From the NCBI GenBank assembly GCA_902790015.1, contig CADAQF010000019.1, forward strand, positions 1-64,000: 64,000 nt of DNA, written 5' to 3'. Each line of letters begins with the position of its first letter. Position 1 is the first letter of the stretch. Positions 7,055 through 15,341 of this stretch are shown piece after piece. The DNA comes from an uncultured Eubacteriales bacterium (GTDB lineage Bacteria; Bacillota; Clostridia; Christensenellales; Aristaeellaceae). The translations under genes and the position numbers were made by a program. The notes under the pieces are model-generated. The model was not told the DNA's origin and did no database searches. It was given only the letters and a program-made list of their open reading frames with translations.

Positions 7055-9619
7055 TCAGTCGATCATCGCGCTGTACCCCTCGGGCACTTCCTCCTGCAGC
7101 GTGATACCGGTGAAATCGGCCGGAACAATGACGGTCTTTTCCCAGACGTCCGGGTCAGCAGAGGAGGCGTCAGCCGGGGTCAGCGTCACGGTGACCGTGT
7201 AGTCTTCCCCGCCTTTTTTGCCGGACAGGGTGATGACGGCCTTATCCGGGCGGGTGCGGCGGGCGTTATGGTTGTCCTGCCAGGTTTTGCGGACGATGAT
7301 TTTGACGCCCCGCAGGAAGGTGTTCTGGACGGTGATCTGATCCGTCCACTGGGTGGGCGAGATGGTGGCGTTGTTGTCGCCCTCAGTGCCGTGAACGGTA
7401 GCGATGGATACCAGCATATAATCGCCTATCGAGTACCCCACGGAAATCTTCTCTCCGTTTTCGTCGATCTCCCACAGGTCGTAGGTCTTATCCTCCACAT
7501 TTATGAAATAACCCTTGTTCTGCGGGATGCCGCCAGCCACTTCGATGGTTTCTACGAGCATATTTCCGTCTTCATCCACCACATAATCGCCCGTGTCCTT
7601 TTCCTGCAGGGCAAAATGGAAGGCGGCGTCAAGCCCGGTCAGGTCGGTCCCTTCGAACGGGAGGACCTCCTTTTCAACCACGACGGTCTTGACCGGGTAA
7701 AGATAGAAATTGTCGGACAGCTCGTTCTCCCCGGCCCGGTAAAGGACGTTTTTCTCGGTCACGTACTCTTCTGCGTAAACGTCCCTGGAGCATACGGCGA
7801 AATAGCGTCCCTCGCCCTGGCCGATGTCCGGGTCGTCCGTATAGACGGTGTACTGGCCGGGAGCGGAAACATCCGTCGCGAAGGAGCGGTACTGGGCGGG
7901 CATCAGGGTCAGTTCCCTGGACTCCCCGGAGCCGTCCCCGGTGATGACGATGGAGCTGAGGCCCTCAGGGTTCTGGTCATAATCGCCGATGACGCCGGCG
8001 TGGACGAAGGTGCCCTGCAGGACGGAGCCGGTGACGTTCCGCCCCTCGGTCACAGAGGTGGTGGTGCCGTCGGCGTTCACCTGACGGGTGTCAATGGCGA
8101 ACTTGGTGCCGTCGGCGTAGGCCTGGACGGCGGCCTGGGAAAAGTCCATCGTGATGGTTTCGGCCATTTTATTGGCCGCTCCGGACCCTATGCCCGCCGC
8201 GCCCCAGCCGCCCACGGCGATGACGGAGCCGCCGGTCACGGTCACGTTGGTCAGGGTGTCGGCCATATAATTGGCTTCTAAGACGAAGGCGTTGAACCCG
8301 GAGCCGATGCCCGCGCCGCCGCGCATCTGCACATCATCTGATTTAGCGCCCAGGGCCGTGACTTCGCCGCCGGAAATGGCGATATCCGCCCGGTCCGCCC
8401 CGACGCCGCCGCCGATGCCCGCGCCGCCCTTTTCGCCTCCGGTGGCGGTGACGGTGCCGCCGGAAATGGCGACTGAAGTGTATTTGCAGGTGGTCTCGCC
8501 GCTGCGCCGGCTGCTTCCGCGGGCTTCCTCGCTGTTGGGCGCCCCGCCGGAGCCGATGCCGGCCGCCGCACCGCCGCCGACGGCGGTAACGTCGCCCCCG
8601 GTGATGGAGACCTCGGCGTGGCCCAGATAGCCGCCGCCGATGCCCGCGCCGCCGTGGTGGTAGTTATTGCTCTGATAATTGCCGGTGGCGACGACCGTAC
8701 CGCCGGTGATGGTCACCAGAGCGTCCGCATACATGCCGCCGCCGATCCCGGCGCCGTTGGCCCCGCTGTTGGCCGATGCGGTCACCGTGCCGCCGTTGAT
8801 GGTGACGTCGGCAAAGTAGTAGCCCGGACCCTTCTTGTTTTCATTATCGGGCTTGCTGCTGCCAAGGCCGGAGCCGATGCCGGAGTATCCGTTGGCGGTC
8901 ACCGTGCCGCCGTTGATCACGATATGGCCGGAATCCGAATGGTTGCCGCCGCCGATACCGGCGCCCGTGCCGGAGGCGGAAGCGGTGACGGATCCGCCGT
9001 TTATCGTGATATCGCCCCATCGATCCTCTATGTACTTATAGGAACCGTCGGACGCTCCCGCGCGGGGATTTTCCGAGGTGCCCAGGGCGGCGGCGTTTCC
9101 GCCCGCGGTGAGGTTCAGCGTACCGGAGGCTATGGTGATGGCGCCGTGTACCCCGGTGTTGCTCTTGCTGCCGCCGATGGCGGCGGAATTGGCGCCGCCC
9201 GCCGCAGTAAGCTTCCCCTCGCCGCTGACGGTCAGGGAGGACAGATTGCCCTTTTCGTAGGCCGGCTCCACGGCGGCAAAGCTGCCCTGACTGGACAGGG
9301 TGTTTTCACTGCCCTCCGCCAGAATGATCGAAGCGGACACGCCGGGGTTGATCAGCACGGCCGGGCCGTTCGCGGCGCTGATGGCGACCCCGTCCAGCGT
9401 GACGGAGGCGTCCTGCGCGACCACAATGCGCTGAGCCGTTTCAGAAACGCCGTCCGCCAGGGTGACGGAGGCGTCTCCCGTCAGCGTCAGCACACCGGTT
9501 TCCGCGTCAAAGACCGCGGGACCGCCGGTTACCGAAAAATCCCCCAGGGTTTCCGAAAGCGCGGAGGGAAAGGCCAGCAGCGCCAGGCATACGAGCAGCG
9601 GCAATAAAAGCTTTTTCAT
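7055..9619 (-). CDS. Large secreted glycine-rich repeat protein with terminal Cna-B domain
   Basis: 854 residues with a signal peptide (MKKLLLPLLVCLALLAFPSALS). Residues of about 25-530 are an array of short strands repeating a pattern like ITGGTVTA..G..GAGIGGG, which predicts a right-handed beta-helix or solenoid. A middle domain (about 620-755) contains VVEKEVLPFEG and LDAAFHFALQEK, typical of SpaA/Cna-type pilin domains. The last 90 residues form a Cna-B repeat (VRKTWQDNHNARRTRP) that stops at EVPEGYSAMID, before the usual final strand. No LPxTG motif, hydrophobic tail or other anchor follows, so the protein is either released or truncated. A surface adhesin or glycan-binding role is inference. 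Confidence 0.8.
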   Translation of the reverse strand: MKKLLLPLLVCLALLAFPSALSETLGDFSVTGGPAVFDAETGVLTLTGDASVTLADGVSETAQRIVVAQDASVTLDGVAISAANGPAVLINPGVSASIILAEGSENTLSSQGSFAAVEPAYEKGNLSSLTVSGEGKLTAAGGANSAAIGGSKSNTGVHGAITIASGTLNLTAGGNAAALGTSENPRAGASDGSYKYIEDRWGDITINGGSVTASASGTGAGIGGGNHSDSGHIVINGGTVTANGYSGIGSGLGSSKPDNENKKGPGYYFADVTINGGTVTASANSGANGAGIGGGMYADALVTITGGTVVATGNYQSNNYHHGGAGIGGGYLGHAEVSITGGDVTAVGGGAAAGIGSGGAPNSEEARGSSRRSGETTCKYTSVAISGGTVTATGGEKGGAGIGGGVGADRADIAISGGEVTALGAKSDDVQMRGGAGIGSGFNAFVLEANYMADTLTNVTVTGGSVIAVGGWGAAGIGSGAANKMAETITMDFSQAAVQAYADGTKFAIDTRQVNADGTTTSVTEGRNVTGSVLQGTFVHAGVIGDYDQNPEGLSSIVITGDGSGESRELTLMPAQYRSFATDVSAPGQYTVYTDDPDIGQGEGRYFAVCSRDVYAEEYVTEKNVLYRAGENELSDNFYLYPVKTVVVEKEVLPFEGTDLTGLDAAFHFALQEKDTGDYVVDEDGNMLVETIEVAGGIPQNKGYFINVEDKTYDLWEIDENGEKISVGYSIGDYMLVSIATVHGTEGDNNATISPTQWTDQITVQNTFLRGVKIIVRKTWQDNHNARRTRPDKAVITLSGKKGGEDYTVTVTLTPADASSADPDVWEKTVIVPADFTGITLQEEVPEGYSAMID

Positions 9620-9907: not shown

Positions 9908-10318
9908 GTGAAGATCATGAAATCCGCGGAAGATTATCTGGAAGCCATGCTGATGATGAGGGAAAAGCATGGATATATCCGTTCGGTGGATATCGCGGGG
10001 CAGCTGGGCGTGTCCAAGCCTTCGGTGAGCTATGCCACCAAAAGGCTGCGCGAAAACGGCTATATCGACATGGCGGAGGACGGGCGGATCACCCTGCTCC
10101 CTCAGGGACTGGAGATCGCCCAGCGCATCTACGAGCGCCACATGGTGCTGACCAGGCTTTTCATGGACCTCGGCGTGGACGAAAAAACCGCCGCGGACGA
10201 CGCCTGCAAGGTCGAGCACGACTTAAGCGAAACGACCTTCGCCGCCATCAAGGCCCACACCCAGCGGCTGGCCGGCTGCAGGACCGCCTGCCCCGAAAAA
10301 GACACCCAGGGGGAATAA
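9908..10318 (+). CDS. DtxR/MntR-family metal-dependent repressor
   Basis: 136 residues. An N-terminal winged helix (about 1-62, recognition region GVSKPSVSYATKRL) is followed by the helical dimerisation and metal-binding domain; there is no SH3 domain. Likely ligands are Asp9, Glu12, His78, Cys100, Glu103 and His104. MntR of Bacillus has Glu where Cys100 sits, while DtxR/IdeR iron regulators have Cys in the same ACxxEH context. The site is therefore a hybrid of the two classes and iron sensing is plausible. GTG 9908 is chosen for the GGAGGTG 7 bp upstream. It is monocistronic, and no metal transporter lies beside it. Confidence 0.88.
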   Translation: MKIMKSAEDYLEAMLMMREKHGYIRSVDIAGQLGVSKPSVSYATKRLRENGYIDMAEDGRITLLPQGLEIAQRIYERHMVLTRLFMDLGVDEKTAADDACKVEHDLSETTFAAIKAHTQRLAGCRTACPEKDTQGE

Positions 10319-10397: not shown

Positions 10398-12044
10398 TTA
10401 TTGTTCCCCGGCCGTCCTCCTGAATATCACCTCTGTACAGTTTTTCGGGTGGACCCGGGGCGTCTGCAGGTAGTAGGTCTTCTGGTATACATAGCTGTAC
10501 CATTCCTGCAGGGTCAACGCTCCGTCCCCGTTTCCGTTTTCAGTATCCGCGGGCATGGGGCCGCTCTCGCCTACGCCCCGGGTCAGCCACACGGGGAACA
10601 GATTATACTGGTCCCGGCCTTCGAACATATAGGTCGTTTCCAGGTAGTCTCCCGCGGTCATGACGAGAAATTTATCCTCGGTCACGAATTTGCTGACATT
10701 TTTATTGGGCTGCAGCGCGTCCTGCGGGAGATCGGCGGAGCGGTAAACGCTGATGCCCGGATCCGCCTGAATGAAGGGCGTCAGCAGCCATTCGCCGTCA
10801 TCGGGCTGCGGGGCGGAGGATTTCGCCGTCTCTCCGTCACCGCTGTTGAATTCCACCAGCGCCGCTCCCGGCCCGCAGGATTCAAGCAGTACGATCACGC
10901 GCCCTTTGACCCGCGCAAGGGCATCCGCCAGTTCGGGCAAAAGGATATGCGTCGCGCGGTTCTTGCAGGCCAGCGCCCCGGCAGTCATATAATTCCTGGA
11001 ATAACGATCCCCGTGGATGGCGATGAAAAACAGGGAGACGTCACCTTCCCGGGAAGGGATCTCCAGCTGCTGGGTGATCTTATCGTATATCTCGGGCGCC
11101 GAAAGATCGTCAAAATCGGACAATATATACCTGCCGCCGTCGGGACCTGTGACGGAGGCCAGCATCGCCTTCATCAGGCGGACGTCGCCGCGGTTGCGCT
11201 GAATGACCTCGGTAGCGGTATATACCCCCGTAGCTTTCTGAGAAGGTGGACTCCGAAAAGAGCACAGCCCGGTAATTCGCCTGCACGACGACAGGGATGC
11301 TGGCGCTGACGCCGCCGTCCTTCGCCGAAACGGTCAGCACCGCCCGGCCCGGATACTGCCCGAAGACCACGCCGTTCTGATCCACGGTGAATATGACCTC
11401 GTCGCTGCTGGACCAGGCCAGCCGGGAAGCGGGCACCTGCGCCGGCAGCGTCTCCAACTGAACGGAGACGCTCCCGCCGTTTTTGACCGTCAATTCGCTT
11501 TCTGAAAAAAGGATCTGCGCTATTGCTCCTTCGGCATAACAGCGGATGCCGTGCTCCAGGCACCAGCTGAACGCGTAGCTGTCCTGCGGCGCTATGACCT
11601 CCACCCCCGCGCAGCCCTCAAAGGCGCTTTCATCTATTTTCTGAAGGCTTCGGGGCAGGCGGATCAGCCGGACGGAGCTTTGGGCAAAGGCGCGGGGGCC
11701 GATATACTGGACGCCCAGCGGCAAAATCACCTCATCCAGGGAGAGGTCGCCGAAAAAACCCTCGGCCTCGATGCGGACCAGGCCCTGCGGAAACGAAAGT
11801 ATCCGGAAGGCGTTTGCGTTGGGGCCGGCGTCGGCGCGGGAAATACAGCCGGCTCCGGGGAGGGCTTCGGGGTGGCTTCGGGTGTCGGCGTCGGCGTCCT
11901 CAGATAAAAGCCGCCTTCGCCGGTGAAATAGGAGAACTGATCGCCCTGCCCGACGGCGGGGGAAGACAGCGTGTCGGCGCCGGCCGCCGGCAGCAGCAGG
12001 CACAGCCAGACCGTCAAACAGATAAGTACACAGCGTTTATCCAT
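10398..12044 (-). pseudogene. Secreted LRR_5 / Ig-like / caspase-like protein, two frameshifts
   Basis: 549 codons in three frame blocks. Block 1 (12044 to about 11810) has a signal peptide (MDKRCVLICLTVWLCLLLPAAGA) and a TPTPTPEATPKPSPEP linker. Block 2 (to about 11229) has BspA-type leucine-rich repeats (LVRIEAEGFFG, LDEVILPLGVQYIG, RSLQKIDESAFEGC) and a BIG_2-like Ig domain (LAWSSSDEVIFTVDQNGVV). Block 3 is a clan-CD caspase-like domain with the His-Gly of FFIAIHGDRYS and the Cys-Gly of IVLLESCGPG. The breaks lie near 11795-11820 and in a five-C run (11225-11229, G on the coding strand). They cancel out, so blocks 1 and 3 share a frame. Decay, sequencing error or programmed slippage are all possible. 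GGAGG stands 6 bp before the start. Confidence 0.75.
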
Positions 12045-12282: not shown

Positions 12283-12443
12283 CCTTTTCCGTCTGACCCT
12301 GTAATTTCCTGTTCGATTCTTGTATTATACACGCTTTGTATGGTATCATGCTCAATATAATAAAACCATTATTTCTTATGTATCCTCACCGTATCTTTCA
12401 GCATTCACTTCGTATCACGCCCTCACATGAAAAGGAGCCTTCC

Positions 12444-13334
12444 ATGCGCAGAAAAATCCTGAACACTCTTTTGGCCGTACTGCTTATGCTGCCGCTGTCC
12501 GCTTCGGCGTCCTCTCCTGCCCGGGTCAGCTACCTCGGCCCGGCGGGCACCTATACTGAGGAGGCTGCCCGATTCTTCTTTCAGAACGGGGAGACCCTGA
12601 TCCCCCTGGATACGGTGGACAAGGCCATCGCCGCCGTATTGAACGGCGAGGCGGACTATGCCGTCATCCCGCAGGAAAACACGCTGGGCGGCGCGGTGGC
12701 CGCTTATGTGGACGCACTCATCGGAGCCAGGGAGGCCTTCGTGGTCGGCGAGGTGGTGCTGCCCATCAGCCAGACGCTGATGGGACTGCCCGGGGCAAAG
12801 CTTCAGGATATCCGGACGGTGTACTCCCACACCCAGGGACTGACGCAGAGCGCCCGCTGGCGGACGGAAAACCTGCCGGACGCCCGGGCCGTCGAAATGG
12901 GCAGCACCGCCGCCGCGGCCAGCTTCGTCGCCCAGAGCGGGGATAAGACGATCGCCGCCGTGGCCGCGCCGGGAGCCGCTCAGCTGTACGGCCTGGAGGT
13001 CCTGGCCGAAAACGTGCAGCTGAGCTCCGCCAACAAGACACGGTTTTACGTGCTGTCCAAAGCGCTGATTAACGAGCCCGGCCTCCCCCGCGCCCTGTTC
13101 CTGATCACCTGCACGGCGGACTGGATAGACGATATCCTCATCGACCTTCATAACGCCGGCCTGGAGCTGGTGACGCTCCACGACCGCCCCGAGGGCAGCC
13201 GCCTGGGCTCCTATCATTACCAGGTCGAGGTAGAATGTGCGGACGGCATTACCCCGGAACAGATCGCCCTGGCATGCTCCTGGGAAGGCGTGCGCTTCGC
13301 GGGATGCTTCCGGGCGGCAGAAAAGACCAACTGA
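12444..13334 (+). CDS. Prephenate dehydratase with an export signal
   Basis: 296 residues. The catalytic domain (about 26-205) matches PheA-type prephenate dehydratases: YLGPAGTYTEEAA, IPQENTLGG, QTLMG, YSHTQGL and the diagnostic TRF triplet at 199-201 (NKTRFYVLS). A C-terminal ACT domain (about 216-292) keeps a DRPEGSR version of the ESRP phenylalanine-binding motif. The first 24 residues, MRRKILNTLLAVLLMLPLSASASS, form a clear signal peptide, which is unusual for this cytosolic enzyme. The ATG has AAAAGGAGCC upstream. The enzyme would make phenylpyruvate from prephenate outside the membrane, or the leader could be a membrane anchor. No other aromatic-pathway gene is nearby. Confidence 0.85.
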   Translation: MRRKILNTLLAVLLMLPLSASASSPARVSYLGPAGTYTEEAARFFFQNGETLIPLDTVDKAIAAVLNGEADYAVIPQENTLGGAVAAYVDALIGAREAFVVGEVVLPISQTLMGLPGAKLQDIRTVYSHTQGLTQSARWRTENLPDARAVEMGSTAAAASFVAQSGDKTIAAVAAPGAAQLYGLEVLAENVQLSSANKTRFYVLSKALINEPGLPRALFLITCTADWIDDILIDLHNAGLELVTLHDRPEGSRLGSYHYQVEVECADGITPEQIALACSWEGVRFAGCFRAAEKTN

Positions 13335-13507: not shown

Positions 13508-13537
13508 TTGACAAACCTGTGCGGCCGGCTGTATGAT
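13508..13537 (+). promoter_or_regulatory. Promoter of the glycosidase-like / aldo-keto reductase pair
   Basis: TTGACA (13508-13513), an 18-bp spacer and TATGAT (13532-13537), 64 bp before the start codon. Nothing else is recognised in 13335-13601. Confidence 0.6.
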
Positions 13538-13601
13538 TTGCCTGCGTACAGAAATGGTACTATTTTTCCCCGCCCGGTATTTCCGTCAAGGAGGTCAAAC
13601 G

Positions 13602-15341
13602 ATGTCCAACTACCGTCATTTCAGCCTGGCCGCCTATTTCGTGGCGCACGCGGCGGCGCGCGTCACGCGGGAGGAGCTTGAAAAGCAGCTGGCCTTCATG
13701 GAAAGGTATATCCGCCTGGACAAGGTGTATCTGGAGCCCTGGCGGGGGGAGCTGGTGCCAAGGGAACAGATCGCGCTGTGCCGGTCCGTCCTGTCAGCGC
13801 ACGGGATCGAAGTGGCGGGGGGACTTACCACGGTCATTCCCACCCCCGAGGGAGACGCCCCCAAGCAGCGCCTGTTCGGCACCTTCTGCTATAACGACGC
13901 GAAAATGCGGCAAAGACTCAGGGAAATCAGCGCTTATACAGCCTCCCTTTTCGACGAATTCCTGATCGACGACTTCTTTTTTACCAACTGTACCTGCGCG
14001 GCCTGCATACAGGCGCGGGACGAATTCAACCGCGCGCACGGCATCAAAAGCGGCTGGCAAAGCTACCGGCTGGACCTCATGCGCCGCGTCAGCGAAGAAG
14101 ACGTGATCGCCCCGGCCAAGGCCGCCAACCCCAACTGCCGGGTGATCATCAAATACCCCAACTGGGCGGAAAGCTATCAGGAAACCGGCTATAATCCGGC
14201 GGAACAGCGCGGGCTTTTTGACGGCCTGTACACCGGCACCGAAACGCGGGATCCGGTGACCACCGACCAGCACCTGCCCCGCTACCTGAGCTTTTCCCTG
14301 ATGACCTATTTTGAAAACATGTGGCCGGGCCACAACGGCGGCGGCTGGTTTGACAACTTTGACACCCATATTACGGAGCACTATCTGGAGCAGGCCTACC
14401 TGACCGCGTTTTCCAGGCCGAAGGAGCTGATGCTGTTCTGCTTCCAGTCCCTGTACGACCATATGTATGTTCCCGCTCTGGGCTTTCAGCTGGACAAGCT
14501 GGACAGCCTGCTGGATTACGCGGGCAAGCCTGCCGGCATCGCCTGTTTCCTGCCCGACAACGCCCAGGGCGAGGACAACGTGCAGGATTATCTGGGCATG
14601 GCCGGCCTGCCGGTGGTCTGTACGCCGTATTTTCCTCAGGACGCTTCACAGATCCTTTTGACCGCCTCCTCCGCATATGATCCGGATATCCTGGAAAAGC
14701 TCCGCGCCTATCTGGCGAGCGGCAAAAAGACGGCCCTGGTCACCACGGGCTTTTGGGAAGCGGTCAAAGACCGCGGCTATGAGGACCTGACCTCGATCCG
14801 CGTAAGCGCCCGGCGCGTCACCGCGCGGCGCTACCGGGTGGAGGAAAGGCAGAACGTCTGCGTGTTCCCCGAGGGCGCGCGGCCGGTCACCCTGCCCGCG
14901 CCGGAGTTCCGCAACAACAGCACCTGGGCGCTGGTGAAAGCGTCCTTTGGGGAGGAAAGCAGCGCGATCCTTTTGCGCGACGCCTATAAGGACAGTGCGC
15001 TTTTTACCCTGTCCGTCCCCGACGCCCGGCCCGACATCTATCATTTGCCCGCCCCGGTGCTGAGCGCCGTGCGCCGGCACCTGCCCGTAAACGGCGTGTG
15101 GCTGGAAGGTCCGGCGCGGATCAGCCTGTTCGTGTATGACAACGACACGGTGATCCTCTATCCCTACGTGATGGAGGGAGTCCAGCGCGGGCGGGTGATG
15201 CTGCACGTCAGGGGCGCCCGCGCCCTGTGCTCCCGTCCCGCCGGGCGTACGGTACAGCCTTTGTATGTGCGGGACGGAGAGGCCGTCTTCGACCTGCCCG
15301 CCGAGCCTGGGCGGTATACGCTTTATCAGATCATACGCTGA
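13602..15341 (+). CDS. Putative TIM-barrel glycoside hydrolase with GATase-like C-terminal region
   Basis: 579 residues, no signal peptide, so cytoplasmic. The N-terminal half looks like a glycosidase TIM barrel: DKVYLEPW, GIEVAGGLTTVIPT, then an acidic strand end EFLIDDFFFTNCTC, VIIKYPNW and DGLYTGTETRD. The middle contains VVCTPYFPQDASQILLT and a Rossmann-like stretch where residues LRAYLASGKKTALVTTGF recall the class I glutamine-amidotransferase-like domain following the barrel in GH42 and related families. A small beta domain ends the protein. I cannot name a family or substrate. AAGGAGG lies 7 bp before the ATG. It is 12 bp upstream of an aldo/keto reductase, suggesting sugar metabolism. 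Confidence 0.6.
   Translation: MSNYRHFSLAAYFVAHAAARVTREELEKQLAFMERYIRLDKVYLEPWRGELVPREQIALCRSVLSAHGIEVAGGLTTVIPTPEGDAPKQRLFGTFCYNDAKMRQRLREISAYTASLFDEFLIDDFFFTNCTCAACIQARDEFNRAHGIKSGWQSYRLDLMRRVSEEDVIAPAKAANPNCRVIIKYPNWAESYQETGYNPAEQRGLFDGLYTGTETRDPVTTDQHLPRYLSFSLMTYFENMWPGHNGGGWFDNFDTHITEHYLEQAYLTAFSRPKELMLFCFQSLYDHMYVPALGFQLDKLDSLLDYAGKPAGIACFLPDNAQGEDNVQDYLGMAGLPVVCTPYFPQDASQILLTASSAYDPDILEKLRAYLASGKKTALVTTGFWEAVKDRGYEDLTSIRVSARRVTARRYRVEERQNVCVFPEGARPVTLPAPEFRNNSTWALVKASFGEESSAILLRDAYKDSALFTLSVPDARPDIYHLPAPVLSAVRRHLPVNGVWLEGPARISLFVYDNDTVILYPYVMEGVQRGRVMLHVRGARALCSRPAGRTVQPLYVRDGEAVFDLPAEPGRYTLYQIIR

Follow-up and report, generated by a model that had tools for sequence, protein, structure and literature searches.

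Why would a bacterium send a prephenate dehydratase (PDT) out of the cell? PDT is an enzyme of the phenylalanine pathway that normally works inside, but the gene at 12444-13334 (+) of the window (the whole 64,000-nucleotide stretch of DNA analysed here), which starts with ATG and encodes 296 amino acids, appears to carry an export signal. Two features read from the sequence define its 5' end:

12431..12437 (+), Shine-Dalgarno sequence AAAGGAG, 6 bases 5' of the ATG
12444..12509 (+), Sec signal peptide, residues 1-22, with predicted cleavage after A-S-A

The leader, MRRKILNTLLAVLLMLPLSASA, has a charged n-region (RRK) followed by a hydrophobic core and the A-S-A site, and in the AlphaFold2 model residues 1-22 are the only ones with pLDDT below 50. 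A scan of the region of the window around the gene found no structured RNA leader. The simplest objection is that the start has been mis-annotated and the true protein is cytosolic, beginning near residue 26. Comparison of start sites among homologues, which the sequence-only reading had put forward as a check, showed that family conservation does set in at about residues 26-28. However, no start codon lies close to residue 26, the only in-frame starts between the ATG and the domain being TTG at residue 10 and ATG at residue 15, both within the hydrophobic core, and the Shine-Dalgarno sequence sits at the ATG. Moreover, all 84 exported members examined have a leader, these leaders are divergent in sequence, and in some relatives whole exported enzymes are fused before or after the PDT domain. 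A start-site error was therefore rejected, and we consider it extremely improbable. The description of the gene as a PDT with a signal peptide, made originally from the letters alone, is borne out by its match to PF00800, its A-S-A leader and its Shine-Dalgarno sequence.

At least 83 relatives share the export tag. Using our own rule-based script rather than SignalP, we detected an export signal in 84/84 members of the clade and in 0/26 cytosolic PDTs of relatives; by this test the protein and its homologues carry the signal that defines an exported aromatic-pathway enzyme. The leaders comprise 53 with a lipobox by a strict pattern, 30 that are signal-peptide-like, some of which show a lipobox that the strict pattern missed, and one with a hydrophobic segment only. 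Linkers accompany the lipoboxes. Export is thus strongly supported, as a prediction, by the clade-wide signal, the lipoproteins and the fusions to other exported enzymes.

In the phylogenetic tree the 84 exported PDTs form one group apart from the 26 cytosolic PDTs (SH-aLRT 100), on a long stem where, the tree program warns, long branches meet. Their submitter labels (Clostridia, Erysipelotrichia, Anaerolineae and Spirochaetia) change at least seven times on the tree, which is consistent with horizontal spread, though labels of metagenome-assembled genomes may be wrong. A mobile carrier was rejected, since no viral relative was found and the plasmid matches listed were all ordinary PDTs, at most about 35% identical. 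A scan with one genome per species recovered 80 loci, with best segments 56-72% identical. A ruminant host is named in the titles of 23 of these (21 RGIG bins, red deer and reindeer); a further 28 are isolates labelled RUG (rumen uncultured genome). The other 29, of unconfirmed host, are SRR, UBA, RUI and SIG bins plus two named strains, Oribacterium sp. C9 and Lachnospiraceae bacterium JC7. The exported PDT was present in 3 of 59 relatives, and at E 1e-60 in none of 390 other genomes of the class and none of 398 other genomes of the phylum, both evenly drawn. Most of the clade comes from Clostridia and Erysipelotrichia of the ruminant gut.

Is the exported protein still an enzyme? Its catalytic part contains the following:

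12525..13061 (+), PDT catalytic domain PF00800, residues 28-206 (Pfam E 2.5e-55, with a fold match)
12672..12683 (+), active-site motif Q77-E78-N79-T80, invariant in the exported family
12825..12848 (+), active-site motif S128-H129-x-Q131-G-x-x-Q135; S128, H129 and Q135 invariant, Q131 in 83/84
13032..13046 (+), N197-K-T199-R200-F201, the catalytic TRF motif; N, T, R and F invariant

The domain scores 187.6 bits against a Pfam gathering score of 25.2, and 186.3 bits against the NCBIfam equivalog cut-off of 219 for NF008865, which it does not reach. In the alignment the N, T, R and F of N-x-TRF are invariant in all 84 exported and all 26 cytosolic PDTs, and the residues common to working PDTs (E-N, S-H, Q135 and N-x-TRF) are retained in essentially all exported members; EqPdt, a secreted fungal PDT, requires the Thr of its TRF (PMC11980547). 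Between close pairs of exported PDTs the core has dN/dS of approximately 0.04-0.3, and the leaders diverge faster than the core at the protein level. With a fully conserved active site and a domain that, judged from these comparisons, is under strong purifying selection, the exported PDT very likely still catalyses, with prephenate as the default substrate. The AlphaFold2 model, built from 76 sequences (mean pLDDT 86.6), has as its best PDB matches the complete PDT+ACT enzymes 6vh5, 2qmx and 3mwb (TMq 0.76-0.79), with GqqA (7am0) likewise among the best and SsuA, TauA and methionine-binding proteins ranking lower.

The substrate could nevertheless have changed: candidates are arogenate, a different cyclohexadienyl acid or, following the example of GqqA, a signal molecule. 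Beside the catalytic Glu-Asn the exported clade has an invariant Gln, Q77, where cytosolic PDTs mostly have Ile, Leu, Phe or Val, and this could mean another substrate. Together with W139, R140, Y202 and a one-residue insertion at A91, also clade-specific and in or near the active-site motifs, it leaves room for shifted specificity. The long stem, the score below the equivalog cut-offs and the precedent of GqqA, a quorum-quenching PDT (PMC8192741) that is also a structural match, point the same way. Against this, the residues of working PDTs are kept in essentially every member, and GqqA targets signals of Gram-negative bacteria, so we regard a changed substrate as rather unlikely.

The C-terminal part departs further from the cytosolic enzymes:

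13089..13322 (+), ACT-fold C-terminal domain, residues 216-293, from model secondary structure and PDB alignments
13179..13190 (+), HDRP, residues 246-249, replacing the phenylalanine-binding ESRP; H246 in 84/84, D247 in 81/84

Pfam gave no ACT match for the exported PDT; the fold is seen in the structure and PDB alignments, and its motif is divergent. Cytosolic PDTs have E in 18/26 and S in 25/26 at the ESRP positions. In the exported clade the phenylalanine-binding GALV motif is replaced as well, E241 (83/84) stands in place of the usual Asn ahead of ESRP, and C223, D229, D230 and E262 are near-invariant. The longer stretches PQENTLGG, in the catalytic domain, and HDRPEG are specific to the clade. 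Despite its ACT fold, the protein thus lacks the GALV and ESRP that mark an ACT domain of the PheA type. The earlier view of a complete catalytic domain with TRF and a C-terminal ACT domain stands, the latter by its fold. Since ESRP has become HDRP, GALV is lost and new C, D, D, E and H residues are conserved, ordinary phenylalanine feedback is unlikely; as a precedent EqPdt, with NSRP for ESRP, is active and uninhibited by Phe, Tyr or Trp (PMC11980547). The rebuilt site could possibly bind a new ligand or metal.

These changes also bear on whether the protein is a binding or sensor protein, in which a catalytic domain resembling periplasmic binding proteins and the ACT domain are reused to hold an aromatic ligand without catalysis. 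The PDT fold is indeed common to periplasmic binding proteins, as the lower-ranked matches illustrate, and many of the relatives resemble solute-binding proteins in being lipoproteins. However, the catalytic residues are fully conserved, the phenylalanine site of the ACT domain is lost, and comparison of the neighbourhoods of relatives revealed no conserved operon, transporter or histidine kinase beside the PDT gene. A transport or sensor operon was rejected on this last ground, and binding without catalysis is improbable. The suggestion that the protein senses phenylalanine is disfavoured in particular, because the clade as a whole has lost the ACT motifs that bind it and yet retains every catalytic residue.

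In the carrier genomes searched, the exported enzyme exists beside a cytosolic one. The only other PDT of the source genome (2.62 Mb, 67 contigs, 92% complete) is joined to a chorismate mutase and leaderless (CM-PDT), and adjoins an aroC-like gene identified by eye; it is the second, leaderless pheA that the sequence-only reading had thought worth seeking. A cytosolic, leaderless CM-PDT was found in all four carrier genomes searched (G000, G004, G015 and G024), so that each has a separate enzyme for housekeeping synthesis. No exported chorismate mutase was found in these four genomes, which are 79-97% complete and contain only leaderless chorismate mutase domains, including the extra one of G015; this absence is not absolute, because one of them is only 79% complete. 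A partner exported chorismate mutase in a periplasmic overflow pathway was rejected for the four carriers on these grounds, implying that the prephenate must come from elsewhere.

What, then, does the enzyme work with? At least 13 of the 84 exported PDTs are fused to another enzyme behind the leader:

HAD phosphatase before the PDT: L004, L005 and L050
HAD phosphatase after the PDT: L043, L046 and L054
Histidine phosphatase (His_Phos_2): L074 (before the PDT) and L102 (after)
Acetolactate decarboxylase, in lipoproteins: L059, L061 and L073
DHH/DHHA2: L057
GH3: L076

The partners in L004 and L054 were assigned partly from likeness to scanned members, and L048, L067 and L081 have additional domains without assignment. 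The HAD-PDT fusions of G004 and G015 are mirrored, unfused, in G024, where an exported HAD-containing gene on the 5' side stops 48 bases short of the PDT gene and has the same orientation. An acetolactate decarboxylase gene also lies near the exported PDT gene in L091, L093 and L104 (PF03306 was tested in L059 and L091). G007, which is related to the source genome but lacks an exported PDT, encodes in L137 (3181-6606, +) an exported-looking protein of 1141 amino acids in which two HAD phosphatase domains accompany a phytase/glucose-1-phosphatase-like one, and exported phosphatase modules look shuffled in this group.

In the window itself the next gene 3' (13533-15341, +) encodes a 602-amino-acid protein with no Pfam match. 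On the other side lie a DtxR/MntR-type metal-dependent repressor (9908-10318, +), an exported-looking, adhesin-like protein of 854 amino acids that has beta-helix repeats and a weak match to Cna_B (7055-9619, -), and an exported-looking gene whose product combines BspA-type leucine-rich repeats with a Big_2 domain (10398-12044, -). Behind these domains comes a stretch that, judged by eye, resembles a caspase-like peptidase (no Pfam match); it is split over several reading frames, which we read as a frameshifted gene or a sequencing error.

Compared with known systems, the protein shares fold, domain order and catalytic motifs with cytosolic PheA/P-protein (PF00800 plus ACT), whose structures are the closest, but it is exported, lacks a chorismate mutase domain, has HDRP for ESRP and no GALV, and scores under the NCBIfam cut-offs. 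The nearest published bacterial case is that of the exported CM-CDT fusions, for which the authors doubt a biosynthetic role (PMC10520331). Like these and PheC, our protein is an exported phenylalanine-branch dehydratase beside a housekeeping cytosolic CM-PDT, and like the CM-CDTs it occurs in fusions of both orders; unlike them it is not accompanied by an exported chorismate mutase in any of the four genomes. PheC-type CDTs, a family of their own in Proteobacteria, descend from solute-binding proteins and have no ACT domain (PMC10520331), whereas the present PDT is of the PheA type with ACT. No domain of the PheC/solute-binding-protein family was found in it, PF00800 being the sole match and the ACT fold being present, and an identity as a PheC cyclohexadienyl dehydratase was rejected. 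EqPdt of powdery mildew is also a secreted PheA-type PDT with an altered ESRP, but it is fungal, has no signal peptide (unconventional secretion), carries NSRP rather than HDRP, and works inside plant cells alongside a secreted chorismate mutase (PMC11980547). GqqA has the same PDT+ACT fold and binds L-Phe at the ACT dimer interface, and no signal peptide is mentioned for it (PMC8192741).

Taken together, we think it likely that the exported PDT acts on external prephenate or a near analogue, as one of a set of exported enzymes that process metabolites. A competent PDT of the PheA type, exported by Sec, would be released or, as in the many relatives that are lipoproteins, kept at the cell surface. 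Its substrate would be prephenate, or a closely related cyclohexadienyl compound (arogenate, for example), that escapes when cells lyse or overflow. It would produce phenylpyruvate (or phenylalanine), to be taken up, reduced or shared, and would no longer be tuned by phenylalanine feedback. Extracellular phenylpyruvate formation, as proposed from the outset, fits the intact active site, and the repeated fusion of PDT to exported small-molecule enzymes suggests salvage or processing of external metabolites; we infer that the benefit may be phenylpyruvate salvage or an effect on the community. Against this reading count the lack of an exported chorismate mutase in the four carriers, the absence of a conserved operon or transporter next to the gene, and the clade-wide Gln at position 77. 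More tentatively, the rebuilt ACT site (C223, D229, D230, E241, H246, D247 and E262) of this PheA-derived family, centred on the ruminant gut, might bind a new effector or metal. The enzyme, exported phosphatases and acetolactate decarboxylase might then form a metabolite-processing module at the surface, one that would harvest or remove intermediates of biosynthesis that neighbours release.

Exported phenylalanine-branch enzymes are an unsolved oddity. In the literature covered, the bacterial ones are PheC-type dehydratases or chorismate mutases, chiefly from Proteobacteria and mycobacteria, and the literature searched contained no paper on an exported PDT of the PheA type. Here it is the PheA-type enzyme that a large, conserved and mainly ruminant-gut clade exports, shuffled with other exported enzymes and with its feedback site rewritten. 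The natural fusions, together with Oribacterium sp. C9 and Lachnospiraceae bacterium JC7, offer tests of why this step is outside the cell and of whether the exported PDT feeds aromatic acids to the rumen community.
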